Assembly (NCBI GenBank): GCA_947650365.1
Contig: OX393551.1
Coordinates: forward strand, 63,601,644-63,665,643
Direction: 5' to 3'
Source: Chamaelirium japonicum
Lineage: Eukaryota > Streptophyta > Magnoliopsida > Liliales > Melanthiaceae
Length of the DNA: 64,000 nt
Shown: in pieces, positions 21,904-64,000 of the stretch
Layout: every line of letters begins with the position of its first letter
Numbering within the stretch: the first letter of the stretch is position 1
Program-made: the position numbers and the translations under genes
The notes under the pieces: generated by a model
The model's database searches: none
What the model was told of the DNA's origin: nothing
What the model saw: the letters and a program-made list of their open reading frames with translations, nothing else

Positions 21904-21983
21904 CCGTCCCCCCATCGATCGGCTCACCTCGCTCCCTTCGCCTCCCCCGGGGAGTTCTCCCGATCAAATCGGCGGCGATACGA

Positions 21984-29299: not shown

Positions 29300-30326
29300 T
29301 GTGGGGGGTTTTTAGTCGAACCGGGCGGTTCGGGTGGCGAGCACAATCCAACAAGCCAAATGCAAAGAAGAGACGGTGGTTACGTGGAAAAACCCCTTCG
29401 CAACGTCGAAGGGGAAAAAACCACGGGTGGGGCGAGAATGCACTAAGACTAATCTTTCAGTTACAATCTCTCACCTTAACCCCAATTACATACTCTGAGG
29501 ACCGGTCTCCCAAAATACCGACCTCTGCGATTTCACTCTGACTGCCGACCGCTGCAGACAGCGTCTGTCTGCAGGTCGCTGCAAACAGTGTCTGGCTGCC
29601 GACCGACCGACCTCCGCAGACAGCTTCTGGGTGCTGACCGACCGACCTCCGCAGACAGCCTCTGGGTGCAGACCGACTGATCTCCGCAGCTCCGCAAATT
29701 CCGGGACGAAACGGGCAGCGTCTCCTCCAGAATTCTCCCTCCTCCTCGCTGAAGGGGTAGGTCCCCTTTTATAGTGGCGGGGTGACGGTTACACTCCGCA
29801 AAAATTGGGCGAGTGACATGTCCCCGCAATGAGCTCAACCGCCGCGGTGACGTGGCGCGCGGTTGACACCTGGTCACATTGGGCCGGAAATCGCGGAGCG
29901 TCGTCAGCACCGCGAGATCTCCGGGTTCGGCTGTTTCTTCACACTTCGGCTCGTTGCATGTCCCATCGAGAGAGAGAGGGGTTGTTGCCTGGCCGACCCC
30001 CTTTTTTTGGCTACATGCCAACCCAGAAGAGAGGGGGGGGGGGGGGGGGGGGGGGTGCCTTCTTGTGGACCAACCGACCAACCCCCCCTTTCTCTGGGTA
30101 CATGCCGACCCAAGGGGGGGGGGGGCTGCCTCCTTGTGGACCAACCGGCCGACCCCCCCCCCCCCCTTTTCTCTGAGTACATGCCGACCCAAAAAGGGGG
30201 GGGTGTCTCCTTGTGGACCAACCGGCCGACCCAGAGAGAGAGGGGGGGGTGCTTGTTGCATGGCCGATCTCCCTTCCTTCTCTCCGACGGTTACGGCGCC
30301 GGCTCCAAAAGAGAATGATACACACA
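29300..30326 (-). repeat. Outer 3' LTR copy (LTR1)
   Basis: On the plus strand it runs TGTGGGGGG to TACACACA, about 1027 bp. It holds three to four imperfect units built from CTTGTGGACCAACCGGCCGA and GTACATGCCGACCCA, separated by long G and C runs. The minus-strand promoter TATAAAAG lies at 29767-29774. It is separated from the next LTR by only four bases, ATAT (30327-30330). Confidence 0.95.
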
Positions 30327-30330
30327 ATAT

Positions 30331-31340
30331 TGTGGGGGGTTCTTAGTCGAACCGGGCGGTTCGGGTGGCGAGCACAATCCAACAAGCCAAATGCAAAGAA
30401 GAGACGGTGGTTACGTGGAAAAACCCCTTCGCAACGTCGAAGGGGAAAAAACCACGGGTGGGGCGAGAATGCACTAAGACTAATCTTTCAGTTACAATCT
30501 CTCACCTTAACCCCAATTACATACCCTGAGGACCGGTCTCCCAAAATACCGACCTCTGCGATTTCACTCTGACTGCCGACCGCTGCAGACAGCGTCTGTC
30601 TGCAGGTCGCTGCAAACAGTGTCTGGCTGCCGACCGACCGACCTCCGCAGACAGCTTCTGGGTGCTGACCGATCGACCTCCGCAGACAGCCTCTGGGTGC
30701 AGACCGACCGATCTCCGCAGCTCCGCAAATTCCGGGACGAAACGGGCAGCGTCTCCTCCAGAATTCTCCCTCCTCCTCGCTGAAGGGGTAGGTCCCCTTT
30801 TATAGTGACGGGGTGACGGTTACACTCCGCGAAAATTGGGCGAGTGATGTGTCCCCGCAATGAGCTCAACCGCCGCGGTGACGTGGCGCGCGGTTGACAC
30901 CTGGTCACATTGGGCCGGAAATCGCGGAGCGTCGTCAGCACCGCGAGATCTCCGGGTTCGGCTGTTGCTTCACACTTCGGCTCATTGCATGTCCCATCGA
31001 GAGAGAGAGGGGTTGTTGCCTGGCCGACCCCCTTTTTTTGGCTACATGCCAACCCAGGAGAGAGGGGGGGGTGCCTTCTTGTGGACCAACCGACCAACCC
31101 CCCCTTTCTCTGGGTACATGCCGACCCAAGGGGGGGGGGGGGGGCTGCCTCCTTGTGGACCAACCGGCCGACCCCCCCCTTTTCTCTGAGTACATGCCGA
31201 CCCAAAAAGGGGGGGGGGTGTCTCCTTGTGGACCAACTGGCCGACCCAGAGAGAGAGGGGGGGTGCTTGTTGCATGGCCGATCTCCCTTCCTTCTCTCCG
31301 ACGGTTACGGCGCCGGCTCCAAAAGAGAATGGTACACACA
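30331..31340 (-). repeat. Inner 3' LTR copy (LTR2)
   Basis: It is a nearly identical copy of LTR1 and LTR3, about 1010 bp, differing mainly in G/C run lengths. Its right edge joins the element's interior: the minus strand reads AGGAGGGGGTAT just before the LTR, a good polypurine tract (31341-31352). Confidence 0.95.
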
Positions 31341-31540
31341 ATACCCCCTCCTGACCGGACGGTCCTTGGTCCCGCCCGGTCAGGATTACTTTGCCTCGAT
31401 TTGCATGCCCGTCTCAGTTCGGGGCTGTTGCAACTCAAAAACAGCTGTCTGGGTTTTTTCTGATTTTTCGCCACATGGCGTCGCCGGGCGCCGCCAACTC
31501 GTCTCCTCGAAATTCGAACCCATCCAGCTCCGACTTCGTC

Positions 31541-37900: not shown

Positions 37901-38906
37901 GTAGCGGGTAGCTGTCCTTTGGGCATGCCTGGTTGAGATTTGTGAAGTCGATGCAGACCCGAATGGCTCCTGACTTCTTGGGGACGGCGACCACGTTAGC
38001 GATCCACTTCGGGTACCGAGCCTCTCTGATGATGCCCGCTCGTAGCAGCTTCTCCACCTCCACGTTGACAGCTGCTGCTTTTTCCGGTGCTAGCGACCGA
38101 GGCTTCTGACGTACAGGTGCAGTTCCTTCTCGAATATTAAGGTGATGACAGGCTACCTCGGGGTGGATGCCTGGCATATCCTCAACTGACCATACGAACA
38201 CGTCCAGGTTTGCCTTGAGAAATGCCGTCATAGCTTCAGCATGATGCTTCGGCAGCTGCGACCCGTGAAAGGTTATCCTTGGATGGCCTGCTTCTCCTAA
38301 GTCCACGGGCAGGATTGGCTCGACGGCAGGCGACTCCTCCCACTCCGTGTTCGGGCTCTCCGACTCGCCCGGTTCTTTAGGTTCAACCGGTCTGTCGGTC
38401 TTCTGAGGGTGCGTCCTCCTGCTCAGTTCTTTACCTTCAGCTGGTAGGTCAGTCTCCATCGGGTCGCTCGGACCAGTTAGCTCTTTAAGTTCAGCTATCT
38501 GACCGGCCTTCTTCAAGCTCCTCGACGCATTCAGTTCTTTACGTTCAACTGAATGGTCGGTCTTCTGTAGGTCCCCCGACACTGTCAGCTCTTTACGTTC
38601 AGCTGACATGTCAGTCTTTAGCAAGTCCCCCGACACTGTCAGCTCTTTACGTTCAGCTGACTGGTCGGTCTTCAGCAGGTCCCCCGACACTGTCAGCCCT
38701 TTACGTTCAACTGACAGGTCAGTCTTCTCAGGTGCTTGGCCTCCTCGCGCTCCTGCGCTTGATAGGGCGTGATGCTGGAGCGTTGGTGCTTCTCGACTCT
38801 GCTTCGCAGTCCAGAGGTTGAGGATGCCCAACTCAGTGCTGCCTCCACCTGGTTCTCCCCCTTCAATTTGGCATGTCGTCGTCGATGGATGGCACTGAGC
38901 TCGCAC
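34995..38906 (-). CDS. pol: Tat-lineage pol: RT, RNase H, aRNH, integrase
   Basis: The 1303-residue frame has a repeat-rich linker (about 61-186), reverse transcriptase (about 245-470; YVDD at 417-420), an RNase H/connection region (about 520-650), a second archaeal-type RNase H (about 715-845; FVNGSS, NNEAEYEA, GDSQLV, NKQADALAN), and integrase with its HHCC zinc finger (about 953-996) and catalytic core (about 1014-1120; LDILGPFP, VADNGRQF, ESNGQAES). The C-terminal part (about 1200-1300) resembles the usual gypsy integrase tail without a chromodomain. The products copy and insert the element. The frame overlaps the end of the gag-pro frame. Confidence 0.95.
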   Translation of the reverse strand: MRAQCHPSTTTCQIEGGEPGGGSTELGILNLWTAKQSREAPTLQHHALSSAGARGGQAPEKTDLSVERKGLTVSGDLLKTDQSAERKELTVSGDLLKTDMSAERKELTVSGDLQKTDHSVERKELNASRSLKKAGQIAELKELTGPSDPMETDLPAEGKELSRRTHPQKTDRPVEPKEPGESESPNTEWEESPAVEPILPVDLGEAGHPRITFHGSQLPKHHAEAMTAFLKANLDVFVWSVEDMPGIHPEVACHHLNIREGTAPVRQKPRSLAPEKAAAVNVEVEKLLRAGIIREARYPKWIANVVAVPKKSGAIRVCIDFTNLNQACPKDSYPLPRIDTLVDSTAGHERLSFMDGYSGYHQIPMNPEDQEHTTFVTGRGLFCYKMMPFGLKNEGATYQRLVNKMFVDQIGRNVEVYVDDLLVKSQAEDTHMQDLEETFATLRRYSMKLNPAKCAFGVTSGKFLGYLVTRRGIEANPEQIRALEEMPSPKSRKEVQKLTGRINALNCFISKSSDRCRPLFERLSKLAPFDWDQRCEEAFQELKTYLGRPPILTAPRPGATLGVYLSVSEAAISAVLICECEGAERPVYYVSRIMTSAETRYARIEQVPLALVYVSRRLRPYFVAHPIEVITEHPLKEVLDNSTRAGRLSKWAAELQEFGPRYVPRKAVKGQALADFLSDFPAEDTAPVPETLEDLSVAAGRPVGVSAVAGQEDEEQGWRLFVNGSSCTVGSGVGVVLVTPDHTKLEKSVQLLFPTTNNEAEYEAMLTGLEMATALGVTSLRVYGDSQLVINQITGRYEARDARMQAYLKLARELIAKFEDISFHQFPRAENKQADALANLASVLGEDREKRVFIEVQADPRTVGPAEDSCLTRRTEAMETAHTIAVGADWICNMKKYLLDGILPEDVDEARRTKAHAPRYTLIDDELYKHSFGGPYLKCLTKEQAAEIMKEVHEGGCGNHSGGRSLARKIKLQGYYWPTMEADAGGYAKRCLQCQKHAPSIHQPAEELHPVSSPWPFQQWGLDILGPFPTSPNRRKFLLVATDYFTKWVEAIPLLKIGEVQVGKFLWSSIICRFGLPRAFVADNGRQFDAESIKKFCANNNIKLFFSTPRYPESNGQAESTNQAILDILKKKLEQKKGLWEEALPGVLWAYRTTPKRPTGESPFSLTYGSEAVLPKETLVPTQRTIVAADPKLNDELLLDGLDLLEEKRERARARLANHHQAIKRAYDRKVRRRVFKQGDLVMRKVFDNTKELGSGKLGATWEGPYIIDGMGKNGAYRLKTQDGDALARPWNAANLRKFYQGS
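38349..38726 (-). repeat. 54-bp in-frame repeat in the pol linker
   Basis: Seven 18-residue units of the type KTDQSAERKELTVSGDLL run from about residue 61 to 186 of pol, between the protease and RT regions. The central units are nearly identical and the outer ones are diverged. The repeat keeps frame, which suggests expansion that the element tolerates as a flexible, charged linker. Confidence 0.9.
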
Positions 38907-40543
38907 TTGGCTGCCGAGGACTGGTCACCTCGAATACTCATCACGCCCTTGTCGGTCCAAAACTTCACTACCTGGTGGGCCGACGAGGGGACCGCATCCA
39001 AGTGGTGGAGCCACGGCCTTCCAAGGATGATGTTGTACGCCGAGTGAGCTTCAATCACAATGAACCGGGTAAAGTTAGTGAGATGCACTGTTGTGATCGG
39101 GAGGGTGATCTCACCAACCACCCTTGCAGCCTCCCCCGTGAAGCCCGTTATCGTCGACGACGATTCGGTCATCTGTCCGCGATCTAGCTGCATGGCGTCG
39201 AAGGCGCTGAGGAAGAGCACATCAACTGAACTTCCGGCGTCGACCAGAATTCTCTTCACTAGGCAATTGGCTATCTGGAGCCGTATGACCAGGGGGTGGT
39301 TGTGAGGCCTCTCTATTCCGACCAGATCAGCCGCCGAGAACTGTACTGCAGCTTCCACTTTTGGCTCGGGACGGATGACGGGGTCGAGTACCACATGGTG
39401 GACTTGCCTTGTTTGTTCAATACGTCGCACCTGTCGGTCGACGGCATTTGCTGATGGTACCGGGCCATGGTACCCGTAGACTGCATCTACCTCTCGAAGT
39501 TGACGCCTTTCTGGCGGAGGGCCCGGTAAGCGCTGTGTCGTTGCCCCTCGCTGGACTTCCCCTACAGCCTTAGTCTCCTTACGTTGAGGGAGGTCAATGA
39601 AGCAGCCAATATGGCCGGCTTCAATGAGATCCTCGATATGATGTTTGAGCGCCCGACACTGCAGGGTAGTGTGGCCTTGGCTCTGGTGGTACTCGCAGTA
39701 CCTCGATACATCTCTGGCTCCCCTCTCTCCGGGTTCCAGCGGTTGCGCCCACTTGAAGTATGGTTCGCCCTTGATGGCTTCCAGGATCTGGTCTATGGGG
39801 GCGTTCAGTACTGTGAACTCCCTGTTCCACTGTGGCCTCGCGGGCCTGTCTTGCCTCTGCCGCTTCGCGTCATGCCGCGTCGCCTCCCCCTGCTGCTTGT
39901 TGACGTTCTTCACGGCAGCTGGCTTGGGGTAGCCCTGGTGCGGGGCTCTGGTTTCCACCGCCTTCCTCTTGCGGTCTGCGTCTTCGATCTTGATGTACTT
40001 CTCGACACGCCGCGATAGCTCGTCGATCGTCTCCGGGGTTCGCTTGATGAGCGACGCGTTGACGAGCTGGGCAGGCTGAATGGCGTTCTTGAAGGCCGCG
40101 ATCACCATGCGATCCTGCCCGTCTGCGTCCGCCAAGCTCAGGTACTCGGACCTGAACCTATGGTAGAATTGTCGGAGCATCTCCTTCTGGGTCATACTCA
40201 TCCCGAAGAGTGACTCCAGAGTCTTCAGCTCCCGGCGGTTACATCGGTACTGGTCGATGAACCGCGTGCTCAGCTCCGAGAAAGAGGAGATGGACGAGGG
40301 CCTAAGCTTGTGGAACCATTCAAGGGGGGTTCCCGACAAGCTGTTGGCGAAGGTCCGACAGAGGATATGATCATCCTCGTGCGGGACCAGAGCATCCCGG
40401 AAAGCCAGTACATGCTCCACCGGGTCTTTCGATCCGTCAAACTTGGGAAGGCGTGGAGGATTCCATCCGCGTGGGAATGGCTCCCGGAGTAGCTTCTCGA
40501 CAAGCGGCGACCGTGCGGCTCCTCGGATGGCGACTTCCTTCAA
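38693..40543 (-). CDS. gag: Tat-lineage gag and protease region
   Basis: The 616-residue frame contains a gypsy gag core (about residues 25-160; DPVEHVLAFRDALV, FSELSTRFIDQYRC, LRQFYHRFRSEYLSL). A zinc-binding motif CEYHQSQGHTTLQC follows, with LKHHIEDLIEAGH behind it. The retropepsin segment (KRILVDAGSSVDVLF) lies near residue 430, with GRPWLHHLDAVPS downstream. Gag forms the particle and the protease processes the polyprotein. The frame ends about 210 bases inside the start of the pol frame, in a different register. Confidence 0.9.
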   Translation of the reverse strand: MKEVAIRGAARSPLVEKLLREPFPRGWNPPRLPKFDGSKDPVEHVLAFRDALVPHEDDHILCRTFANSLSGTPLEWFHKLRPSSISSFSELSTRFIDQYRCNRRELKTLESLFGMSMTQKEMLRQFYHRFRSEYLSLADADGQDRMVIAAFKNAIQPAQLVNASLIKRTPETIDELSRRVEKYIKIEDADRKRKAVETRAPHQGYPKPAAVKNVNKQQGEATRHDAKRQRQDRPARPQWNREFTVLNAPIDQILEAIKGEPYFKWAQPLEPGERGARDVSRYCEYHQSQGHTTLQCRALKHHIEDLIEAGHIGCFIDLPQRKETKAVGEVQRGATTQRLPGPPPERRQLREVDAVYGYHGPVPSANAVDRQVRRIEQTRQVHHVVLDPVIRPEPKVEAAVQFSAADLVGIERPHNHPLVIRLQIANCLVKRILVDAGSSVDVLFLSAFDAMQLDRGQMTESSSTITGFTGEAARVVGEITLPITTVHLTNFTRFIVIEAHSAYNIILGRPWLHHLDAVPSSAHQVVKFWTDKGVMSIRGDQSSAAKCELSAIHRRRHAKLKGENQVEAALSWASSTSGLRSRVEKHQRSSITPYQAQEREEAKHLRRLTCQLNVKG

Positions 40544-41471: not shown

Positions 41472-41490
41472 CCACAGACGACGCCAAGAT
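41472..41490 (-). other. Primer-binding site region
   Basis: Directly inside the 5' LTR the minus strand reads ATCTTGGCGTCGTCTGTGGG, the region found after the LTR in many Tat/Athila-type elements. The second gypsy element in this window has the nearly identical ATCTTTGGCGTCGTCTGTGG. Its position sets the element's orientation as minus. Confidence 0.8.
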
Positions 41491-42325
41491 TGTGGGGGGT
41501 TTTTAGTCGAACCGGGCGGTTCGGGTGGCGAACACAATCCAACAAGCCAAATGCAAAGAAGAGACGGTGGTTACGTGGAAAAACCCCTTCGCAACGTCGA
41601 AGGGGAAAAAACCACGGGTGGGGCGAGAATGCACTAAGACTAATCTTTCAGTTACAATCTCTCACCTTAACCCCAATTACATACCCTGAGGACCGGTCTC
41701 CCAAAATACCGACCTCTGCGATTTCACTCTGACTGCCGACCGCTGCAGACAGCGTCTGTCTGCAGGTCGCTGCAAACAGTGTCTGGCTGCCGACCGACCG
41801 ACCTCCGCAGACAGCTTCTGGGTGCTGACCGACCGACCTCCGCAGACAGCCTCTGGGTGCAGACCGACCGATCTCCGCAGCTCCGCAAATTCCGGGACGA
41901 AACGGGCAGCGTCTCCTCCAGAATTCTCCCTCCTCCTCGCTGAAGGGGTAGGTCCCCTTTTATAGTGGCGGGGTGACGGTTACACTCCGCGAAAATTGGG
42001 CGAGTGACGTGTCCCCGCAATGAGCTCAACCGCCGCGGTGACGTGGCGCGCGGTTGACACCTGGTCACATTAGGCCGGAAATCGCGGAGCGTCGTCAGCA
42101 CCGCGAGATCTCCGGGTTCGGCTGTTGCTTCACGCTTTCGGCTCGTTGCATGTTCCATCGAGAGAGAGAGGGGTTGTTGCCTGGCCGACCCCCTTTTTTT
42201 GGCTACATGCCAACCCAGGAGAGAGGGGGGGGTGCCTTCTTGTGGACCAACCGACCAACCCCCCCTTTCTCTGGGTACATGCCGACCCAAGGGGGGGGGC
42301 TGCCTCCTTGTGGACCAACCGGCCG

Positions 42326-42360
<35 letters not shown>

Positions 42361-42526
42361 TTTTCTCTGAGTACATGCCGACCCAAAAAGGGGGGGGGGG
42401 GGGTGTCTCCTTGTGGACCAACCGGCCGACCCAGAGAGAGAGGGGGGGGTGCTTGTTGCATGGCCGATCTCCCTTCCTTCTCTCCGACGGTTACGGCGCC
42501 GGCTCCAAAAGAGAATGGTACACACA
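41491..42526 (-). repeat. 5' LTR (LTR3)
   Basis: This copy of about 1036 bp is bounded by TGTGGGGGG and TACACACA and followed by the target duplication GAGAT. The promoter TATAAAAG is on the minus strand at 41957-41964. It has the longest poly-C tract of the three copies (about 42330-42360). Confidence 0.95.
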
Positions 42527-47520: not shown

Positions 47521-47904
47521 AGCTTTTCTATCTCTGGGATATTAAAAACTAGGGCATTTCTCTTGAGGTTTTAACCAAAATGACCCTCCACTAACCTGTA
47601 TTGACCTAACTGACCCTATGTTTCACCTCTTTACTTTTGTGACCTTTTTTTTTTTTTGGACGACTTTGCCCCGACGAATGTCATCCACAGCTTTTTTTTT
47701 TTGAAGCAGGTAGAGAGGGAGGAGGCAAAGATGGAGTTCGTGGAGGCGGCGGCGCTGAAGAACGGGTGCCGGCGGGAGGTGCCTCTTCCACCCCCACGCC
47801 TCCCCTTCAAAACCCCCCTTCACCTCCGGAGTCAGGACCCTCACCTCCGAACCCTAGCCCCCTCCCGTCGCGCCTGTCGTCCCTATCCCGGCACCGCCGC
47901 TCCG

Positions 47905-48258
47905 ATGGCGTCCGATCTCCCCTGCGACACCGACGGCACCAGCATGATGTGCCAGAGCACCCCGCCGGAAGCCAATGTGGTGTTGTGCCGCACCTACGCC
48001 ACGTCGTGGCACGTCCAGTGCCTCTCCAAGCCGCCGGAGAAGCACGCGTCCGTCGCCGAATGGGAGTACTGCCCGGACTGCTCCCCGACGGAGGACCTCT
48101 CGGTGGCGGCCATCGCTCCCGGCGGCGGATCCTCCGTCCCATCCGGCGCCTCCGCGGACCTGATCGCGTCCATCCGGGTGATCGAGGCGGACGGGTCACT
48201 GACGGTGCAGGAGAAGGCGAAGCGGCGGCAGGAGCTGGTGAACGGCGGCGCGGCGTAG
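47905..48258 (+). pseudogene. Captured ORTHRUS/VIM exon 1, left copy
   Basis: MASDLPCDTDGTSMMCQSTP followed by LCRTYATSWHVQCLSKPPEK and WEYCPDC matches the N-terminal PHD finger of the plant ORTHRUS/VIM E3 ubiquitin ligases, which bind methylated DNA and histones and help keep CpG methylation. The full proteins have PHD, RING, SRA and RING domains, over 600 residues; this frame stops after 117. Two zinc ligands seem lost (TSMMC where the family has VCMxC, and CRTY for CxxC), while the last CPDC pair is kept. GC-rich codon use differs sharply from the surrounding AT-rich DNA, a sign of capture. It might still be transcribed from the arm but cannot make a ligase. Confidence 0.8.
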
Positions 48259-48320
48259 GATGTGGAGGAGGATGGGGACAAGAAGAGGAAGGGGAAGGCC
48301 GAGAGTGATGATGTCCTGGG

Positions 48321-48405
48321 TCAAGAAACTGTTATCGGAGAAACTATATTTTTTTTTCATTTTCTTTTTAAAGCGCACCCAGATCAAGAAACTGTTATCG
48401 GAGAA
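48321..48405 (+). repeat. 21-base templated duplication
   Basis: TCAAGAAACTGTTATCGGAG plus AA occurs at 48321-48342 and again at 48384-48405. The right arm has only the second, diverged copy, and at the first position it has RING coding sequence instead. This looks like filler DNA from break repair. Confidence 0.8.
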
Positions 48406-49149
48406 CGGATAGACATTGCGACAATCGAGGTTATATTAAGATAAATGCATGAGTTTTTTTTTCTTTTTTAGATCCTCTGTTTTCCGTTAGTAGAAATGGT
48501 TTTGGATTAAAGAATGCGTTCGATGTTCATTGTCCGATCCATGCGTTCTTACTCTGAGATTTCTATTGTCAGAAAAGATTTCGATTCGGGAGACGAGCAC
48601 CCCCTTTTTATTTTTCTTTTCTTCTAGGTTTGTAGGCTTTGTCTTATTCTTGACATGATAATCAAAGAAAGGAGATTAAAAGACAGGGTGATTGAGGAGA
48701 AAAAGATGGTTTGGTGTTCTCTGTGCTTACCATCTCTGCTCTGGATCCTTTTGGTTGATGCTTACAAAGTTTTGTTCATTTGTTGATCTATTTGTTTTCA
48801 TTTTGTGGATGATCATCTCACAAATAATACCCCATTTACTTCCAGTATGCGTTTGTTTGCATCTATCTCTCTCTCTCTCTCAACTAATTATCATATTCAT
48901 CATTCATTCTATTCTTGAATCACGATTTTTTGGGGTACCCTTTATAAATCTTATCCCCCCTTTTTTTGATGGACAACTTAGTTATATGTTGAATGTTATT
49001 GTTTCTTCTTTTTCTTTTAGTTAGCTTTGTTTTCCTTCTTGAAAAGTTCGCAAATCTGGAAGCACATTAAAATTTTTCTTCTGTGTGTTAAAGGCCATCA
49101 ATATATAAACATGAAATGAATACATTGAGCACAAATGCTGTTCACTTAG

Positions 49150-49500
49150 AGCATCTCCAACCAACTCGCTACAGTAGGTCATTCGCTACTGTATTGAAGT
49201 TATGGAGGAGGAATCTTCGGGTGATTATGCATTAATGGAGAGATTCCGTGTTTATGGCAAATCTATATGATTATGGTAAATGTATATTTTGGAGGAAACT
49301 TCCATGTAATTATAATTCCATCTCTGGGTTTTGGGTGACTAATTCCCTATTTATCGAGGGGATCCTAATGTAAGGAGTATGAATAAGAAATCTCCTCCTC
49401 ATTCTCCTGTGGAGTAGGCTTACGAGCCGAACCACCTCCATCATGGAAGATGGTTTTTGAATGCTCAAACTGACTACCAGGGCATATACTATTTTGACAA
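49150..49500. other. MULE interior, possible LTR/TRIM fragment
   Basis: AGAGCATCTCCAACCAACTC at 49149 begins a stretch with short tandem motifs; the part ending near 49440 (GTAAGGAGTATGAATAAGAA) has the look of an LTR poly(A) region. No paired copy exists here, so the call is weak. 48746-49150 shows no gene. Confidence 0.25.
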
Positions 49501-49517
49501 TTCACTACTCTGTTTAA

Positions 49518-49635
49518 CCAAAATGACCCTCAACTAACCTATATTGATCTAACTAACCCTAGGTTTCAAATATTTACTTTTGTGACCTTAATTTTTTTTT
49601 TTTTGGATGACTTTGCCCCCACGAATTTCATCCCT
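49518..49635 (+). repeat. Internal third copy of the MULE terminus
   Basis: TTTAACCAAAATGACCCTCA through TTTTGTGACC, a T-run, and GACTTTGCCCCCACGAAT matches the first 120 bases of both arms. It is followed not by the ORTHRUS/VIM exon but by a different GC-rich leader that ends in CACTGCAG/GTAATC (about 49917), a splice-donor-like site. It may be the original terminus or promoter of an inner gene. Confidence 0.75.
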
Positions 49636-51334
49636 TTGAAGAGGCGACGCTCAGGCGCCGCTCGAGGGTTTTCGGTTTTCCTCTCAGGCACTGCTCGAGG
49701 GTTCTCCATCCGCAACAAAGAAAAGAGAGAGAGAGAGAGAGGGGGGGGGGGGGGGAAGGGAGATTTCCTTGAGCGCCGGCCATTCTGTCTCTTGAGTGTG
49801 AGCGTCATCCCTTGAGCTTGAGCACCGGCTGTTTCATCCCCTAAGTGTGAGCGGCGGTCGCTCTATCCCCTGAGTGCATCTACAGCGGAGAGAGAGAGGG
49901 AGATCTCCACTGCAGGTAATCTTCACATCCAAATTCTTTTTGTTATTCTTTGTATATTACATTGTTTATTTTTTCCATTCCTAAAAGTTTTGAATGCAAA
50001 ATTAAGGGTTTTGATTGGTTTGATAATCTAGGGTAAGGAGGCTGTAGATGCCTTTTGAATATAATCTTAGTCTTTTTGAATACTCCAATTTCTGGATGGG
50101 TTTGAAGTATATGCTCTATTCAGTTGGAGCATATACTTACTGAGAAAAAAAAAATAGCCCATCCTTTCCCATTCCATACTCCGAAAGTCCATACCCCTGC
50201 TCTGAATTCGGTATGGTAATGTTTCCTTTTGTTTTTGTTGTTTATAAATGAATTGAGTCATAGTGAGAGCTTTCAATTTTGCTAGGACAATCACCTCGAT
50301 AAATTGTTCCAGATTTATATTTTTATTATATTGTTGTAATAATGCAAAAGTTTGAGGTGTTTAGTACACGTATTTTACATAGAGATGCATAAATTAGACC
50401 GTCACGGATAAAGATAATGAAAGGATAGGATGTCAAAATTTTGTAGGCTTTGCACAGATATATTTATTTCTGAAGTATTGAGTTCTTTTTTATTTTTTGA
50501 AATTGGCGGCAGGTGTCCTAAAACCTTTTGAATTGAACCAATGAATACATACCCTTCATTCACCAGCACAACCCATCCAACTTCTATACTATGGGAGGAT
50601 ATACCTCACAATTTATACAGATTAACAATTCATCATTATGCATACACAAAAGGTTAACACTCCAGTGCATACTTCCCTCATAAAAAAATACTCCAATGTA
50701 TACAACTCTACACCATGAGAGGAGATGACATTCTCTACTAAGGAGAAGCTTCAAAAGTTTACACTCACAAATAAGACAAACTCTAACTTCTGGAGCTTCA
50801 ATGGGATTGAACAATTCTACTAATTATATTGAACATTGCTGCAAAAAAGGCACTATGAGATCAAAATAAAACCATCTTTATTCGAATCCTCAACAATGTG
50901 AATATCTTAATGCGAGACAGATTGTTCTATATAAAACTCTTGTACTGAATCTTCTAATTGGGATGGTTTCACTAAAGCTCAATGTCTTGCCATGTAGGAG
51001 ACAAGAATATTCTTTTGAGGCTTAATATCATTAGGTTATTCCTTTGCGACTTTTACTGTAATGTTAGGCTTAGCTTGTAGCTTAGGCGTACTTGCAGTTC
51101 TTCTGATTTTTTTGGCTCAAACTTTGCTCATGTTTTGTGTTGTCACATATCTTAATATGGGACTCTTGTATTTTTATCTTTTTCGTTTGTCAAATACTAT
51201 CTAATTGATTTATTATGTATTCGCCCCTCTATGTGGTTGGGTGTAAAGAACATTGACATCACTTTAGATACATCTAAGCGCTCATTCCTTTAATTCATAA
51301 AAAATATTGATGTTATTATCCAGAGAGAAAATGT

Positions 51335-51765
51335 GGCTAACCAACGGGAGCATCTTGGTGGACTCATTGGTATTTGGGGGTGGTATACATGAAGGAAAGA
51401 TTGATCATGTTGATGGACTCATTGGACAAAAACCCCGAGAATATTTATCGAGCGAATGTAAGTAGTTTTCTTTATATCTTTCCTATTATATTGTATAGCC
51501 TAGGTGATGAAAAGGCTTTGATTGGAAAGAAGTGGGAGATGCGGAATTGTAGCGAGAAAATAAGGCTACAAGAGAATAGGTAAGATTAACTTATACAAAC
51601 TATATTAATTTTAATTCAATAAACTATACTATTTATTATTTGATTACCTTGTATGTTGTAATATTTCAGGATTGATTATGGAGTATTTATACTGGCATAT
51701 GCACACTATTTGATAGCAGGACGAAAGATTGATTTCACACAGACCGACATGACTGCTATCTGAAA
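51335..51765 (+). pseudogene. ULP1-type (C48) protease relic
   Basis: The frame around 51365 reads HWYLGVVYMKERLIMLMDSL and, after an intron-like gap (GAATAGGTAAG at about 51576, TTTCAGGATTG at about 51662), continues IDYGVFILAYAHYLIAGRKI. This order is the catalytic end of ULP1/SENP SUMO proteases: His (HW), Asp (MDS), and the Cys-containing DCGVF box. The Cys position is Tyr (DYGVF), so this copy cannot be an active cysteine protease. The upstream N-terminal part is not recognisable. ULP-like genes are known cargo of plant MULEs. Confidence 0.7.
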
Positions 51766-52129
51766 AAGAATTATTTTTTAAATCTTGATGAACAAATTAT
51801 GATTGTTATTTGTTTTAATATAATTGGAAACAAACTCTGTATGATCATAATATGGTGTAATTATGCTTCTTGTTGGATGTTATGAGTTACATTGTAATTG
51901 GTTGTGTTGGTTGTAACTGGACATGTTTGAGTTCAAATGATATTAGATGTAATTGGTTGTGTAGAATGTTATAGGTTACATAATATTTGGTTGTGTTGGA
52001 TGTAATTAGAATCTAAATGATATTGGTTATGTTGATTGTAATTGGACATACAAGTATTGGATGCGATGCTATATGTAATGTAATGGGTTATGTTGATTGT
52101 AATTGAAAATATATCGTTGTGTAGACGAT

Positions 52130-52770
52130 ATATGGAGCATGTGATTACTAGAGTGGAGCATATATGGACACAGGCTCCGAAGAATGTGATATGCTCCACA
52201 CCAGTAATATCTCAGCTGTTTATTAGTGGGGTGGAGTTATGGAGCATATAACATGCTCCATTTATGCTCCACTACAGTGACATTATTGAGGTTGAGTTAT
52301 GGAGCATTTACATACATTGGAGCATATCACTTCAATAACTCTATTTTAATGTTACTGTTGTGGAACATGTATGGAGCATATGATATGCTCTATTTATCTC
52401 AGCTGGCAATAATTACTGGTGTGGAGCATATATGGAGCATATAATATGCTCTATATATCTCAGCTGGCTATTACTGGTGTGGAGCATAAAATATGCTCCA
52501 TATATCTCAGCTGGCTATTACTGGTGTGGAGCATATATGGAGCATATAATATGCTCCATATATCTCAGCTGGTTATTACTGGTGTGGAGCATATATGGAG
52601 CATATAATATGCTCCATATATCTCAGCTGGCTATTACTAGTGTGGAGCATATTGGAGCATATCATATGCTCCTGGAGCATGTGATATGCTCCATTTATGC
52701 TCCACAACAGTGACATTATGTTATGAGTAGTCTGTCTTCTGTATTTCTGGAGCATATCACATGCTCCACA
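52130..52770. repeat. Palindromic minisatellite (GGAGCATAT units)
   Basis: The box CTCAGCTGG recurs at 52398, 52459, 52506, 52564 and 52622 (spacings 61, 47, 58 and 58). Between boxes are GTGGAGCATATATGGAGCAT and its inverted partner ATATGCTCCATATA, so each unit can form a hairpin. Looser copies extend on both sides to about 52880. It is probably non-coding. Confidence 0.9.
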
Positions 52771-52909
52771 ACAGTTGATCATACTCAACTGTATATTCTT
52801 CTTTGTCCTTTGAATGTTTTGCAGGTTTTAAATTATTTCTTCTCTTTCTGGCCTTAGGTAATTGCATTGCTTTATATGGAGCATATCATATGCTTTCTCT
52901 TATATGATT

Positions 52910-54154
52910 GGGATCCAGAGCAGAGATGGTAAGCACAGAGAACACCAAACCATCTTTTTCTCCTCAATCACCCTGTCTTTTAATCTCCCTTCTTTGATTA
53001 TCATGTCAAGAATAAGACAAAGCCTACAGACCTAGAAGAAAAGAAAAATAAAAAGGGGGTGCTCATCTCCCGAATCGAAATCTTTTCTGACAATAGAAAT
53101 CTCAGAGTAAGAACGCATGGATCGGACAATGAGCATCGAACGCATTCTTTAATCCAAAACCATTTCTACCAACGGAAAACAGAGGATCTGAAAAAGAAAA
53201 AAAAAACTCATGCATTTATCTTAATATAACCTCAATTGTCGCAACGTCTATCCGTTCTCCGATAACAATTCTTGATCTGGACGCACTTTAAAAAGAAAAT
53301 GAAAAAAAATACAATAAATAAGGGAAATGTTACTCACGGTGACCGGTCTGTCCGACAGCTGCATGCAGAAGGAGCAGTTGAACTTCTCGTTGAGCAGACC
53401 CAGGACATCATCACTCTCGGCCTTCCCCTTCCTCTTCTTGTCTCCATCCTCCTCCGCATCCTACGACGCGCCGCCGCTCACCAGCTCCTATCGCCGCTTC
53501 GCCTTCTCCTGCATCGTCAGCGACCCGTCCGCCTCGATCACCCGAATGGACGCGATCAGGTCCGCGGAGGCGCCGGATGGGACGGAGGATCCGCCGCCGG
53601 GAGCGACGGCCGCCACCGAGAGGTCCTCCGTCGGGGAGTAGTCCCAGTAGTACTCCCATTCGGCGACGGACGCGTGCTTCTCTGGTGGCTTGGAGAGGCA
53701 CTGGACGTGCCACGACGTGGCGCAGGTGCGGCACAGCACCACCTTGGCTTCCGGCGGGGCGCTCTGGCACATCATGCAGGCGTCGTCGGCGTCACAGGGG
53801 AGATCGGACGCCATCGGAGCGGCGGTGCCAGGATAGGGACGGCAGGCGCGACGGGAGGGGGCTAGGGTTCGGAGGTGAGGGTCCTGACTCCGGAGGTGAA
53901 GGGGGGTTTTGAAGGGGAGGCGTGAAGGTGGAAGAGGCACCTCCCTCCGGCACCCGTTCTTCAGCGCCGCCGCCTCCACGGACTCCATCTTTGCCTCCTC
54001 CCTCTCTACCTGCTTCAAAAAAAAAAAAGTTGTGGATGACATTCGCCGGGGCAAAGTCGTCCAAAAAAAAAAAAGGTCACAAAAGTAAAGAGTTGAAACA
54101 TAGGGTCAGTTAGGTCAATGCAGGTTAGTGGAGGGTCATTTTGGTTAAAACCTC
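52910..54154 (-). repeat. Right long terminal inverted repeat of the MULE
   Basis: It is the reverse complement of the left arm, starting at GGATCCAGAGCAGAGATGG and ending at GGTTAAAACCTC next to the target duplication. It keeps a longer piece of the captured gene than the left arm. Confidence 0.9.
53338..53814 (-). pseudogene. Captured ORTHRUS/VIM exon 1, right copy with RING start
   Basis: MASDLPCDADDACMMCQSAP followed by LCRTCATSWHVQCLSKPPEK is the same PHD finger. Here the early ligands CMMC and CRTC are kept, but the last pair is WEYYWDY where CxxC is expected, so a different part is damaged from the left copy. The first frame ends at 53488. Beyond it, in another register, comes KFNCSFCMQLSDRPVT, the start of the first RING domain, ending exactly at a splice donor GTGAGT (53332-53337). 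That is the expected exon 1 boundary, so genomic DNA, not a spliced transcript, was captured. Confidence 0.8.
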
Positions 54155-54164
54155 CATTTCTCTT

Positions 54165-58369: not shown

Positions 58370-58932
58370 TGTTGGTTAGTTAAGGAAAAAAATCAGCAAT
58401 ATTAATTGGGGGGACAACCATGCATGCAAAGATGGAAGGTAGATCTTGGTTGGCACCCATGATTTCAGCAGCTCATAATGGGCGCTTGCAAAAATGGAAG
58501 GTGGACCTTGGATGGCACCCATGATTTCAGCAACTCATAATGGGCGCTTGCAAAAATGGAAGGTAGACCTTGGATGACACCCAAGATTTCAGTTGCTCAT
58601 TATGTGTGCACTTGAGTTTTCTTTTTTGTAAGAGAGGCTTGGTGCTTAAATAGGGGATGGGTGATGAGAGTTTTAAAAAGTGTACCTCGAATCGTTGTAA
58701 CTTCATCTTGGTTATAGTGGATTTGTGCGGCGGTCGTGGACGTAGCCCTTATTCCCGGGGTGAATCACGTTAAATCCATGTTGTTTCTTGTGGCTTATGT
58801 TGTGCTTGTGAATTTTTGTTTCTTGTTCTCAGGTTGCAATCCCAAGATCGTGGGTAGAAGGATTGCGGAGGCTATTCCCGTGATCGCGACCCCTATCGAC
58901 GAGCGTCCGTGTGTCGCTCGCTCGTCGTTACA
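58370..58932 (+). repeat. Copia 5' LTR with 62-bp repeats
   Basis: The right edge is set by the primer site; the left edge is estimated. Inside, ATGGAAGGT begins three 62-base units at 58432, 58494 and 58556, each with CACCCATGATTTCAG-like sequence. A TTAAATAGGGG box near 58645 could be the promoter. Confidence 0.6.
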
Positions 58933-58988
58933 GTGGTATCAGAGCAAGGTTCCTCGCCAAAGATCCGTTCCTTTGTCGAGTGGGAGTA

Positions 58989-60214
58989 ATGGGAGACAAG
59001 ATAAAGCTCAGCATGGATAAGTTTGATGGCAAAAACTTCAACCTTTGGAAGATGCAGATGGAAGACTACCTCTACCAAAAGGATCTGTTCCACCCGCTAG
59101 AGGAGAAGAAGCCTGCAAATATGGAGGAGCCCGACTGGAAGGTGCTCGATCGAAAGGCGTTAGGCGCTATCCGATTGTCCCTTGCACAGTTGGTCCTCTT
59201 CAATGTTTCCAAAGCGAAGACCACGTACGAGATGATGAAGACCCTCAATGATATGTACGAGAAGCTATCCGCATCGAACAAGGTGCTTCTGATGAAGCAA
59301 TTGTTTAGCCTGAAGATGAAGGAAGGGGGAAATGCAATCGAGCATGTCAACTCCTTCAACAACATCAAGACACAGCTGGAGTCCCTGACCATCACGTTTG
59401 TCGATGAAATCCAAGCCCTTCTCCTACTATCTAGTCTGCCTGATAGTTGGGAAGGCTTCGTGATGACGGTCAGCAATTCCTCCTCCAATGGCGTGCTGAA
59501 GTTCGATAATGTTGTTAGCGTCATCATCAATGAAGAATCACGGAGAAAGTACTCCGGATCTACTGAGGCATCTGGCAGTGTTCTCAATGTAGAGAACCGT
59601 GGGAGATCCCAAGGCCGGAACAACCGAAATCTGCATAGATCCAAATCAAAAAGGGGCAAGTCACAGCAACCCGGCGATGCTAGCAAGGCCACCTACAAGT
59701 GCTACAACTGTGGCAAGCGAGGACACTTTGCAAAGGACTGTCGGGGGCCAAAACGACCTCAATTCGATGGCTACCGGCAAGACCAGGTGTGTGTCGCCGC
59801 ATCCAATAGTGATGATGATCTGTTGCTTCTGTCAGTCGACAACAAGATCGACACTTGGATTGTTAACTCTGAGGCATCGTTCCATGCCACCGGAGAGAAG
59901 GCCAAGATCCCCAGATATGAAAAGAAAAATCTAAAGAATGTCTACCTTGGTAATGATGAGAAGTGTAGCATCACCGGAAAGGGGAGCGGTAGTCTCAAGC
60001 TTAGTGCAGGGGCTTCTCTTCCACTGAAGGACATTCATCACGTCCCTAGCTTAAAAAAGAATCTCATATCCGTTAGTCAGCTAACGGATCTAAACTACGA
60101 CGTGCTCTTTACCAAAGACAACTGGAGAGTTAGCAAAGGTGCCATGACAGTGACTCGTGGCAAACGTGAAGGCTCCCTCTACATTGCAAATGGTGAGATC
60201 TTGGACCTAGTAAA
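58989..60214 (+). CDS. gag: Copia gag and start of protease
   Basis: MGDKIKLSMDKFDGKNFNLW opens a copia gag; the core includes YLYQKDLFHPLEEKKP and LFSLKMKEGGNAIEHVNSFN. A zinc knuckle CYNCGKRGHFAKDC follows near 59700-59741. The protease region begins with DTWIVNSEASFHATG and continues to LHHVPSLKKNLISVSQ-like sequence. I take 58989 rather than an upstream ATG because homology starts there. The frame runs into the Cassandra insertion. Confidence 0.85.
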
Positions 60215-60420
60215 TGTGACGACCAAGATCCAATAGAACAATAGCCAAGAGCCAAGACTCCTGAGGCGGGAATGCCAAGATGGATGAGGTGAGGTGAGGT
60301 GAGGTGTACAAGGCCATGAGTTAGCCCCACATCGCCTGGAGAGAAGGAGATCCTGAGCTACTTATATAATTTCCCCTCCCAAACATAGAAGACGCGTTTT
60401 AAAACCGTACGCCGCTACGG

Positions 60421-60510
60421 AATTCGTAAGAACTCCGTAGTTAAGCTTGCTCGGGCGAGAGTAGTACTAGGATGGATGACCACCCTGGGAAGTTCTCGTG
60501 CGGGCACGGG
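60421..60510 (+). promoter_or_regulatory. 5S-like pol III promoter in Cassandra LTR 1
   Basis: GAACTCCGTAGTTAAGC, CTCGGGCGAGAGTAGTACTA and GATGACC resemble the 3' three-quarters of plant 5S rRNA, including the internal control region. This is not a 5S gene: it lacks the normal 5' part and terminator and sits within an LTR. Confidence 0.85.
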
Positions 60511-60837
60511 CAAAGCGGACAATATCTTGTGTGTTTGGGGCGGATGTTACAAAATGGTATCAGAGCCGGTTCTCCTCGGGATGGGGGGGTCTAATCCTAC
60601 ACGAGGACGTGTAGCCCTAAGGGGGATGGATTGTGACGACCAAGATCCAATAGGACAATAGCCAAGAGCCAAGACTCCTGAGGCGGGAATGCCAAGATGG
60701 ATGAGGTGAGGTGAGGTGAGGTGTACAAGGCCATGAGTTAGCCCCACATCGCCTGGAGAGAAGGAGATCTTGAGCTACTTATATAATTTCCCCTCCCAAA
60801 CATAGAAGACGCGTTTTAAAACCGTGCGCCGTTACGG

Positions 60838-60927
60838 AATTCGTAAGAACTCCGTAGTTAAGCGTGCTCGGGCGAGAGTAGTACTAAAATGGGTGACCAC
60901 CCTGGGAAGTTCTCGTGCGGGCACGGG
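60838..60927 (+). promoter_or_regulatory. 5S-like pol III promoter in Cassandra LTR 2
   Basis: It is the second copy of the 5S-like segment (AGTTAAGCGTGCTCGGGCGA, then GGGTGACC). It differs from the first copy at a few positions, so the two LTRs have diverged slightly since insertion. Confidence 0.85.
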
Positions 60928-60973
60928 CAAAGCGGACAATATCTTGTGTGTTTGGGGCGGATGTTACAGTAAA

Positions 60974-61609
60974 TTCGGTTTCAGCTAACAATGTGTTTGT
61001 TGCTGCCTCACAGACAACTAGTGATGTCTGGCATCGTCGTCTAGGCCATATCAGTGAAAGAGGCCTACAGGCGGTGGCAAAGATGGGTAAACTGTCTGGC
61101 TTAAATGAGGTTGAGCTAGACTTCTGCGAGAGCTGTGTGCTCGGAAAGCAGAAGAGAGCCATGTTCAAGAAGCAAGGGAACACACCGATGGCAGAGCGGT
61201 TGGAACTGGTCCATACAGATGTATGGGGACCAGCCTCTACTCCATCCCTTGGTAACTCCATCTACTTCCTCACGTTCATCGATGATGCTACCAGAAAGGT
61301 GTGGGTCTATTTCTTGAAAAAGAAATCAGACGTATTTGATGTGTTCAAGATCTGGAGAGCCTGTGCTAAGAAAAAGTCAGGGTGCCAGTTGAAGACTCTT
61401 CGCTCAGACAACGGAGGGGAGTTTTGTAGTGCAGAGTTCGAGGCCTACTGCAAGGAGCAAGGGATAAAGCGACAGAAGACCATCCCTGGAACGTCTCAGC
61501 AGAATGGCGTTGCCGAGAGGATGAACCGGTCGCTGCTAGAGAGAGCTCGGAGTATGCGATTGCACTCAGGTTTGCCCAAGTCGTTCTGGGCGGATGCAGT
61601 TAGCACTGC
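60974..61609 (+). CDS. Copia pre-integrase and integrase region
   Basis: After the Cassandra insertion the copia frame resumes: DVWHRRLGHISERGLQAVAK (GAG-pre-integrase with its His/Cys zinc site, CESCVLGKQKR), then the integrase core with LVHTDVWGP, YFLTFIDDATRKVWVYF, LRSDNGGEF and QQNGVAERMNRSLLERARSM, holding the D, D and E positions. It ends in SFWADAVSTA where the second gypsy element enters. Confidence 0.85.
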
Positions 61610-64000
61610 TGTAGGTGCAAAAATTGTACTGTACCGGATCAGAGCGACATGGGCCCGCGCAACGGCCCAAGTGGGTAAGCCCGCCCGGGTTCATGGACCC
61701 ACTCTATGAGGCTCGCAGATCAAGCCCTCCCCCTTATTGGGCCCGAACAACGGCCCAATAAGGGCCCAGCAAGGAGGCCCAGAACCAGTGCCACGTCATC
61801 ATCGCCACGTCATCACTGCCAAATCGGGCACGTGCCTACGCTATAAAAGGACCCCCAAGGCATCCAGGAAGGGGGTTGGTCATTCGATCAGAGGAAGAGG
61901 GATTCCAGCTCCAGAGCAAGTGCAAGAGCTTACTTCTCTCCTCCTAGTTTCTTTTCTTGTTGCTCTGTGCAACCCCCACTGTAAAAAAGCTTCTCTCGGC
62001 CTGTCGAGAGAACGCTCAACCCTTTATATTCATATTATAGTGAAGATCAGGTGGCACCTCTCGCCCGGAGACGTAGGTCGTAAGACCGAACTTCGACAAC
62101 AACTCCATGTGTCATCTCTCTCCTTCTCAACTTTCTAATCTTTAACTCTACAAACAATCCAATTCAATCAAGGCTGTGGGGTGGGATTCTCGATCAAGGC
62201 GGCTCAGAAATTTCCCCCACAATCTTTGGCGTCGTCTGTGGGATATCGATAGAGGTCTTACCCACACCTCTACCGACTCCTATTAAACTTGCGGTGACGA
62301 GCCACAAGTCCTCATCCAAATCAACATCAACGCCTTCATCACGCCGATATCAACTCGCTCAATGGTGAAGGCCAGCACCAACCCACCAAAGGCGGGTGCT
62401 GACCGGACAATCGACGTGCTAATCGAAGAAGAACAAGAAGTCTCGGTTACAACCAACCGAAGAAATGTTCATAAGCGACTGGGGCCATAAGGAAGTCATC
62501 CAGGAAGCCGTAGCAATCGGCATGACCCACCATTCCCGATGCAACGATCTGGCAAAGAGCACGCCACCCAAGGAGACAACGGTTCAGCTACATACCAAAT
62601 TTCGGCTGCTGATTTCCAGCTACTAAATCTCCTCAAGAAGAATACGGCCCCCGAGCAAGAGAGGGATTCCCTAAAGAAGGCGGCTGAAAGAGCGGGGGTT
62701 ATGGCCCACAATTCTCTAGCTACTGATGAAGACCAACCAAGGACTCACCCAGCCGTGAGTCATCATCTTGAAGAACCACACGTGCCGCGTATCGAGAGGC
62801 GTCAGGTATCCACACAAGCACCAAGGCAAACGGTGTGGGATCGCCTCGACGTCAACGGTGCGCCCAGCTATCGCGGAGAAGGATCACCTCAGTCAACAGG
62901 GTCTACTAGACATTCTATCCCTTCTCACACGAAAGCAAGAGATGCCCGTGAGCTGCTCAACCGACTAAGGCATACTGCGGACGTGGGACGCCGCCATCAA
63001 GACCGTAGGCAGCTAATCACCTCGGTGGGGCCACTGCATCCCAAGGTTCTTGCAACACCATTTCCTATGGGTTGGCGAACACCGAGCCTGCCAAAGTTCA
63101 GCTGCATCCAGGGAGACCCTGCTCTCCATATCCTAGCCTACAAGCAGGCCCTGACGCCCTATGAGTATGAGAACCATGTTCTCTGCCGTATGTTTGCGGG
63201 AAGCCTCGAGGGACCTGCCCTCGACTGGTACTATACACTGCCTACTGGTACAGTGACCACATTCAAAGAATTGGCTGGACTCTTCATGGACCATTATCGG
63301 CTAACCTTAAAGCCGGAAAAGAAGCTGGATACACTCTACCGGCTAAAGATGGGCTCCGATGAGTCTCTAAGGAGCTTCACGATGAGGTTTCGTAATGAGC
63401 ACTCTGAGCTCACCGGTCGGTCCCATAATGAGGAGGCCATCATGCTGGCATTCCAGAATGCTATCCGGCCAGAGCTTCATGTCTACACTGACTTCATCCG
63501 GTATCCCCCCAGTACCTTGGAGGCAATGTTCAAGCGCGTACAGCGAGAGATAGAGGTGGAAGACAATCAGCAGGCCAGAAGACTACTCGAGCCTCGCGAG
63601 TCTCGTGACTCCCGACATAAGAAAGATGATGAAGCTTCGAATGAAACACGCTACATGAAGTCTGCCCATGCTGCGTCCGACCAAAAGGCCCAGGCCAAAA
63701 GGTATAATGAAGATCCGAAAGCCCCTCCAGCAGAAAAGAGGCGAACTCCAAGGGAGCAAAGGGTGTTCACTGAACTGAACACCTCCATTGAAGACATCTT
63801 CGCCTACTTGCAGAACGAGCCCTTTTGCAAGTGGCCACAGCCTCTCCCTCCAAATTCCGACCAGGCGGGAGATACGATATCCTACTGTGAGTTTCATCGC
63901 AGCCATGGCCACCCAATCTCTACATGTCGGAAGCTAAAGCATCACATCGAAGACCTGATCCAAGAAGGGCGGCTCGATGGCTACCTCGCTAATAAGGAAC
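61610..64000 (+). mobile_element. Second Tat-type gypsy element, runs off window
   Basis: A 5' LTR of about 612 bp (about 61610-62221; TATA box CTATAAAAGG at 61841-61850; right end TTTCCCCCACA) is followed by the primer-site region TTTGGCGTCGTCTGTGGG (62225-62242) and gag, which continues to the window end. Orientation is plus, inside the copia integrase. The left edge is estimated because the 3' end and target duplication are not in view. Confidence 0.85.
63067..64000 (+). CDS. gag: Gypsy gag, second Tat-type element (partial)
   Basis: The open frame runs past the window edge. It contains MGWRTPSLPKFSCIQGDPAL, LEGPALDWYYTLPTGTVTTF, MDHYRLTLKPEKKLDTLYRL and, near the end, YCEFHRSHGHPISTCRKLKH, the gag zinc-binding motif seen also in the first gypsy element (YCEYHQSQGHTTLQC). 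The region upstream to about 62363 is also gag-like (PLHPKVLATPFP directly precedes), so the true start is probably further left; 63067 is only the first ATG in this open stretch. Confidence 0.8.
   Translation, partial: MGWRTPSLPKFSCIQGDPALHILAYKQALTPYEYENHVLCRMFAGSLEGPALDWYYTLPTGTVTTFKELAGLFMDHYRLTLKPEKKLDTLYRLKMGSDESLRSFTMRFRNEHSELTGRSHNEEAIMLAFQNAIRPELHVYTDFIRYPPSTLEAMFKRVQREIEVEDNQQARRLLEPRESRDSRHKKDDEASNETRYMKSAHAASDQKAQAKRYNEDPKAPPAEKRRTPREQRVFTELNTSIEDIFAYLQNEPFCKWPQPLPPNSDQAGDTISYCEFHRSHGHPISTCRKLKHHIEDLIQEGRLDGYLANKE

Follow-up and report, generated by a model that had tools for sequence, protein, structure and literature searches.

Does a transposon that carries part of its host's methylation reader in two opposed copies work against its own silencing machinery, or is such a pair an inert by-product of end repair? 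The question is raised by a Mutator-like element (MULE) of 6,590 bp at positions 47565-54154 of a 64,000-nucleotide stretch of the Chamaelirium japonicum genome (contig OX393551.1; the whole stretch is here called the window), the two inverted arms of which each carry exon 1 of an ORTHRUS/VIM gene. All genome searches reported here were of the plant's own genome (1.52 Gb). Judging from sequence comparison, we consider it probable that the element is a fold-back Pack-MULE with a captured VIM piece, that this piece was duplicated in inverted orientation within the window lineage, and that the element has by now become largely silenced and methylated.

Results

The element and its arms

An exact 10-bp target-site duplication (TSD), CATTTCTCTT, bounds the element on both sides, just as the preliminary description of this DNA had it, and the combination of long terminal inverted repeats (TIRs) with a TSD in the range of 8-11 bp is that of Mutator-like elements. 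The arms, 47565-48748 and 52911-54154, have the common termini and the length of about 1.2 kb that had been described, and are 95.1% identical in one alignment of 759 positions and 96.5% in another of 400; from outside to inside, each runs from a terminus of about 215 bp through the VIM 5' flank and exon 1 into intron 1. Their duplex energy is -2353 kcal/mol, compared with -539 to -567 kcal/mol for three shuffles of one arm. A chance inverted repeat is ruled out by the exact TSD, the arm alignment, and the duplex energy relative to the shuffles. False inverted repeats can also come from chimeric reads, but a palindrome created by the assembly is barely credible here, given that the arms differ by about 5% with private insertions and deletions, that the exact TSD lies outside them, and that the right arm is joined to a body common to relatives. 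The parts of the element, in window positions, are the following.

47555-47564, no strand: left target-site duplication CATTTCTCTT
54155-54164, no strand: right target-site duplication CATTTCTCTT
47565-54154, no strand: whole MULE, 6590 bp
47565-47780, plus strand: left outer terminus, about 215 bp, common to sibling MULEs without VIM
53939-54154, minus strand: right outer terminus
47781-49515, plus strand: left captured VIM segment, exon 1 with its 5' flank and a part of intron 1 (donor sequence C11:53980995-53982823)
52911-53938, minus strand: captured VIM segment of the right arm, a copy of the same segment but shorter
47905-48322, plus strand: VIM exon 1, left, with PHD Cys ligands lost, an in-frame TAG, and the 3' end lost
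53338-53814, minus strand: VIM exon 1, right, with other PHD Cys ligands lost, two stops, and the 3' end complete
53330-53337, minus strand: splice donor GTGAGTAA of exon 1 in the right arm; in the C11 gene the exon ends at the same point
48321-48342, plus strand: 22 bases, the same as those at 48384-48405, replacing the exon end of the left arm; a gap in the arm alignment
49513-49633, plus strand: inner (solo) terminus copy bordering the captured segment on its inner side
51341-51763, plus strand: Ulp1-like (Peptidase_C48) fragment in two pieces, 51341-51583 and 51670-51763, across an apparent intron
52352-52672, plus strand: tandem array of GGAGCATAT-type units, also present in relatives
52905-52918, no strand: junction between the body common to relatives and the inverted VIM-bearing arm, with similar letters, GG.TCCA, on both sides

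The cargo had been described as an ORTHRUS/VIM exon lying in both arms as an inverted pair, and this is borne out: exon 1 starts with its ATG at 47905 (plus strand) in the left arm and at 53814 (minus strand) in the right, and the right-arm PHD finger matches ORTHRUS 2 (7duf) with E=1.3e-13, the best UHRF1 chain reaching 0.06. The RING fragment of the right arm found nothing significant among solved structures (best E 1.2) and matched no Pfam family. Only the right arm retains the exon end and its donor GTGAGT; the left arm lacks that end, and the 22 bases in its place match sequence 63 bases downstream. Neither arm contains an intact coding exon, since stops and lost Cys ligands are found in both.

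The damaged Ulp1-like fragment scores E=4.5e-6 (27.1 bits, cut-off 20.7) against PF02902 in its spliced reading; the longer piece by itself scores 0.049, below the cut-off. It reads DYG where DCG with the catalytic Cys is expected, placing a Tyr at the Cys position. A frame starting MEFVEAAALKNG within the outer terminus (window 47732-47780) may resemble the N-terminus of plant GATA factors. The Ulp1-like fragment, the inner terminus copy, and the loss of the left-arm exon end go beyond the preliminary description.

The donor gene

A genome search with the VIM exon only yielded 11 candidates, all 11 of which were scored: the two window arms, six other element segments, the genes on contigs C11 and C8, and a 66% match at C3:80656008; the count of VIM genes is thus one of exon-1 DNA. 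The parent gene that the preliminary description had called for was found on C11, to which the left captured segment is 92.5% identical over 1717 positions and the right one 93.8% over 1024 in one alignment. The match is colinear across the captured piece, intron included. Judged by this match, the open VIM gene on contig C11 is the donor, and identity this high means that the low identity to every VIM gene, named beforehand as part of what would speak against the idea, is not what is seen.

We read the C11 gene for its first two exons, which encode the PHD, the RING, and the start of the SRA, as in the ORTHRUS/VIM class. Exon 1 is open, and exon 2 starts 13.7 kb downstream after CAG, completing the RING and the start of the SRA. 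Since exon 1 of the C11 gene ends at the same point and the following exon completes the RING, the splice donor in the right arm is real, as had been claimed for one of the arms. A comparison of exon 2 between C11 and C8 gives a dN of 0.025 and a dS of 0.57; the C11 gene is therefore under strong constraint.

Relatives and a single capture

Besides the window element, six other copies contain one VIM segment each. They lie as follows.

C2a, C2:56269900-56290512: TSD tcaagagaa
C2b, C2:77470477-77478048: TSD tttaactaa
C6a, C6:33669589-33687457: TSD aaaagaata
C6b, C6, 33.709 Mb: within a tandem duplicate of C6a, offset 22,481
C6c and C6d, C6, 52.092 and 52.119 Mb: a further pair, offset 27,075, with left ends truncated and no TSD found

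The captured piece comprises 1.83 kb of the C11 VIM gene, namely its 5' flank, exon 1, and the start of intron 1. Its outer boundary is identical in seven of the eight segments, the eighth (C6b) being truncated there; the inner boundary lies at the same donor base in five of the eight (window left, C2b, C6a, C6b, and C6c), and the same five copies, of seven, have the inner terminus copy. The pattern shows that the VIM piece was captured once and spread to at least five elements, represented by the seven copies. Two independent captures, one for each arm, are ruled out, the arms being sisters with the same outer boundary.

At its right end, C2a has a further open frame, membrane-protein-like by eye and matched by no Pfam family; the same DNA is present in C2b.

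The wider family was sampled with the left arm as the query, which gave at least 47 matches in the genome with the best 40 of 148 candidates scored; 36 of the 47 matches listed start at the terminus, no farther in than query base 16. A relative at C42:1626724-1636149 has the same terminus (88-89%) and a 9-bp TSD, tagtatata. Among its frames are a DBD_Tnp_Mut domain (PF03108, 3.4e-15) and two halves of a MULE domain (PF10551, 0.0025 and 0.00099, each under the Pfam cut-off). Together with the TSD and the arms, this relative upholds the identification of the element as a MULE. No MuDR/MULE transposase was recognised among the scanned frames of the window element itself. It has the attributes of a Pack-MULE, an identifiable host gene fragment (from the C11 VIM gene) and multiple copies with differing TSDs (window, C2a, C2b, and C6a), and we propose that it is a non-autonomous Pack-MULE that has turned into a fold-back element.

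Origin of the inverted pair

Among the 11 candidates of the exon census, opposed VIM segments occur only in the window. In C2a, C2b, and C6a, for which both ends were read, the outermost arms measure 122-127 bp, as against about 1.2 kb in the window element; C6a also has a second right terminus farther in, which matches over 223 bp. About 1.7 kb of right-end sequence is common to all three copies, and of this the window element keeps only the terminus and a 327-bp piece located inside the element. In a tree of the VIM segments the window arms are sisters with a support of 100/98, the C8 row filling only 33% of its columns in the underlying alignment, and the arms have private changes in common, including a 3-base insertion and a TAG. 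A right arm borrowed from another of the copies found is ruled out by this sister relationship. Sister arms, private changes, a right end that is mostly lost, and relatives with single segments show that the pair was made in the window lineage. Both ends thus derive from one end, with an internal deletion, as in the Mu killer type of MULE derivative considered below.

Inverted arms are not confined to this element. A sibling MULE at C5:34694057-34708164 has inverted arms of about 2.3 kb and a 10-bp TSD, tataaaacta, and, by its frames, presumably contains a nested Copia-like retrotransposon. A second, at C6:79655965-79667648 (11.7 kb, no TSD found), is almost wholly a palindrome, with arms of about 5.6 kb that are about 94% identical. 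Each has a similar open frame in both of its arms; in the C6 sibling it is CtBP-like (best E 0.00093; Pfam 2-hydroxyacid dehydrogenase 0.24) and may correspond to ANGUSTIFOLIA. Since host-like cargo in both arms recurs in two siblings, the VIM pair is less surprising. Of the overall interpretation in the preliminary description, the MULE, the inverted pair, the VIM exon, the splice donor site, and the high VIM identity stand, and the pair is unique among VIM segments; a host-like frame in both arms is not.

The siblings bear directly on the view that we are dealing with an ordinary long-TIR MULE without any role in RNA, whose inverted pair is a by-product of end repair, and we put its chances at even. 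The recurrence of a CtBP-like frame in both arms of such elements indicates that pairs form repeatedly, and acquired sequence in extended TIRs is known (PMC3310237, section 4.2). This view accounts for the origin of the pair only, and it departs from the fold-back reading given at the outset by denying any transcript.

Decay and methylation-type changes

The exon has one stop in the left arm, two in the right, and one each in four of the six other segments, with none in C6a and C6b. Nonsynonymous changes are not below expectation in any of the eight element segments, the lowest counts being 11 of 18 in C6c (11.5 expected) and 12 of 19 in C6d (12.1 expected), and no coding constraint is seen. 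A functional VIM peptide made from the arms is ruled out by the stops, the lost zinc ligands, and nonsynonymous changes no fewer than expected.

C-to-T type changes were scored against the majority sequence of nine rows. In the left arm they affect 15/194 CG, 13/147 CHG, and 13/496 CHH sites (A/T sites 5/889), in the right arm 12/180 CG, 11/128 CHG, and 7/275 CHH sites (A/T 3/441), and in the donor gene 8/201 CG, 3/150 CHG, and 7/509 CHH sites (A/T 17/916). CHG exceeds CHH in the left arm (p=0.0028) and in the right arm (0.0092), with 0.7 in the donor gene; CG exceeds CHH in the left arm (p=0.0043). Among the relatives, C2b is significant for both CG and CHG. Such a distribution would be expected after prolonged methylation of the transposon at CG and CHG sites and of the donor at CG sites at most; taken with the stops and the lack of coding constraint, it suggests silenced, decaying DNA.

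Could the window element itself be the silencer, its hairpin small RNAs acting mainly on the common termini and keeping the family off, with VIM as a passenger? Such a self-silencer in the manner of Mu killer is doubtful, though it deserves some weight. It would fit the anatomy (an inverted duplication and an internal deletion, with one end as the source of both; PMC3440606), the sharing of the arm termini seen in the left-arm matches, and the deamination signature, uneven as it is, of VIM-bearing copies. The same signature, however, appears in copies without an inverted pair, so the window locus is not needed for it; the window arms exceed four relatives only marginally in deamination (CHG p=0.051, CG 0.29, CHH 0.08); and the hairpin model of Mu killer is itself disputed by the transcripts described in PMC3440606.

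Possible action on VIM

Of the 1164 21-mers of the left arm, 445 pair perfectly with the right arm, and the longest perfect run is 82 bp. The C11 exon has 454 21-mers, 126 of which are present perfectly in the window arms, 330 with at most one mismatch, and 420 with at most two; for C8 the figures are 22, 53, and 120 of 430. Silencing of VIM by small RNAs from the pair is possible on these matches. Taken singly, the window arms match 86 and 72 of the 454 donor 21-mers, compared with 111-192 for the single-arm relatives; because the latter match more, the VIM match is not special to the pair, and only the double-stranded layout is. The sole non-transposon gene recognised in the window, with six frames scanned, is an EF-hand frame at 21.9-22.5 kb, about 25 kb off, so no promoter for read-through is apparent.

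It is conceivable that the element is an active anti-VIM hairpin. Its transcripts would fold and be processed into 21-22-nt RNAs; these would cleave VIM mRNA within exon 1 and reduce CG methylation, to the benefit of the transposon as well. The arms do pair across about 1.15 kb, nearly all of the donor 21-mers are matched within two mismatches, and the VIM4-VIM2 inverted repeat of Arabidopsis Cvi provides a precedent (PMC13213937). We nevertheless hold this to be improbable. The arms are about 5% diverged, with stops in both and methylation-type decay; exon 2 of the donor is strongly constrained relative to C8, and the donor gene is without a CHG excess over CHH. With few perfect 21-mers in C8, the plant could be buffered by redundancy; each single-arm relative has more of the donor-exon 21-mers than either window arm does; and no neighbouring gene was recognised among the frames examined. 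In rice, moreover, 24-nt small RNAs on MULE TIRs drop with age (PMC4858842). Somewhat more improbable still would be the full version, a transposon-made RNA interference (RNAi) device against the maintenance of CG methylation, in which 21-22-nt RNAs from the arms would cleave VIM mRNA within exon 1, if only in certain tissues or for part of the element's history, and the family would gain a period of low CG methylation.

Other features of the window

A repeat unit of about 1 kb occurs in three copies that are 94.7-98% alike, two of which form a tandem; they lie at 29298-31343 and 41487-42526 and flank a long retrotransposon-like frame (34998-38924). The EF-hand frame, at 21900-22541, is calmodulin-like. 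Copia-type retrotransposon frames occupy 58884-61703 and include an internal 337-bp duplication (60215-60551 and 60632-60968).

Discussion

Our comparisons show an ordered history. A single 1.83-kb piece from the 5' part of the C11 VIM gene was captured beside a MULE terminus, its far edge bearing a further, inner copy of that terminus, and the VIM-bearing element spread to at least five places. In the window lineage, and in none of the other VIM-bearing copies found, most of the far end was lost, and an inverted copy of the VIM-bearing end took its place. The window element sits in the exact 10-bp target duplication, and both of its arms then decayed. The similar letters at the boundaries suggest that capture and arm swap may both have occurred by template switching in gap repair. 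If transcribed across, the element would give rise to hairpin small RNAs mainly against the termini of its own family and, as a second target, more weakly against VIM exon 1. The ordinary MULE, the self-silencer, and the anti-VIM hairpin have the same anatomy as this fold-back Pack-MULE and differ only in the activity of the element, so their chances are not exclusive.

Several observations weigh against this history or against the silenced state that it ends in. The inner terminus copy was not found in C2a and C6d, and TSDs were found for four of the seven copies (window, C2a, C2b, and C6a), not for all. Template switching is read from the junction letters only. Pairing between the arms is still good, which makes a working hairpin conceivable. 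As to methylation, the silenced state is read off old mutations, and the donor too has a CG excess over CHH (0.041, compared with 0.052 in the right arm), though without the CHG excess. The context tests on relatives covered C2a, C2b, C6a, and C6c; C2a is significant for neither CG (0.13) nor CHG (0.24), C6a is significant for CG with CHG at 0.065, and C6c is significant for CHG with CG at 0.087. Finally, the majority sequence contains two duplicate pairs, and changes between the donor and all elements cannot be polarised.

What is the relevance of such a locus? It joins two things that have been described separately, an inverted MULE derivative of the Mu killer type and a VIM inverted repeat tied to a low level of CG methylation. 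Since a single genome contains the donor, the relatives, and an ordered history, one can test directly whether a gene-carrying transposon works against the machinery that silences it or whether such pairs merely arise from end repair and are inert. That fold-back MULEs have formed repeatedly in this genome should in any case be useful for work on transposon-derived small-RNA loci. If the RNAi-device reading were true, the anatomy of Mu killer would here be directed at the host's methylation reader. A study of gene-capture conflict in maize was reportedly made by Muyle et al. in 2021. A conflict over small interfering RNAs (siRNAs) between gene-carrying transposons and donor genes of maize is described in a review (PMC13317346).

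Comparison with known systems

Among the titles and abstract openings listed from the open-licence literature, none reports a MULE carrying VIM/ORTHRUS. What is new is the combination of the Mu killer anatomy with a host VIM exon, not any single part. Like other Pack-MULEs, the window element has MULE termini, a TSD of 9-10 bp in its family, a captured host gene 5' end with part of an intron, and several copies; unlike them, its captured piece adjoins the terminus and occupies both arms. MULEs with inner termini and with acquired sequence in extended TIRs have been described (Ferguson and Jiang 2012, PMC3310237, sections 3.1 and 4.2), and they resemble the window element in having external and internal terminus copies, some with gene fragments, but the window's captured gene piece lies between two left termini. 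The window element also contains a C48 domain in its spliced reading, as do the MULEs carrying Ulp1 (Kaonashi/KIU of Arabidopsis, and those of grapevine, melon, and rice; PMC13317346), yet here it is a damaged C-terminal fragment.

A close parallel in structure is Mu killer of maize, described in PMC3440606 as a MuDR derivative with an internal deletion and an inverted duplication, the two ends of which stem from the same end. The same paper reports short antisense transcripts in plants that silence and only sense read-through in plants that fail to do so, and the mode of action of Mu killer is therefore disputed. In contrast to Mu killer, the window arms contain a host VIM exon, not the transposase gene mudrA, and are separated by more than 4 kb, and any action of the element would be hypothetical. 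The rice report (PMC4858842) concerns an age-dependent decrease of 24-nt small RNAs on MULE TIRs. For VIM itself, the parallel is the VIM4-VIM2 inverted repeat of Arabidopsis Cvi-0, which according to PMC13213937 yields siRNAs and is accompanied by a cleavage tag in VIM1 exon 1 and by low CG methylation. Both loci have VIM exon 1 in an inverted pair; in the Arabidopsis repeat, two VIM genes stand head to head, the stem-loops are near-perfect, and siRNAs were measured, whereas the window contains a transposon-borne fragment, 5% diverged between its arms.

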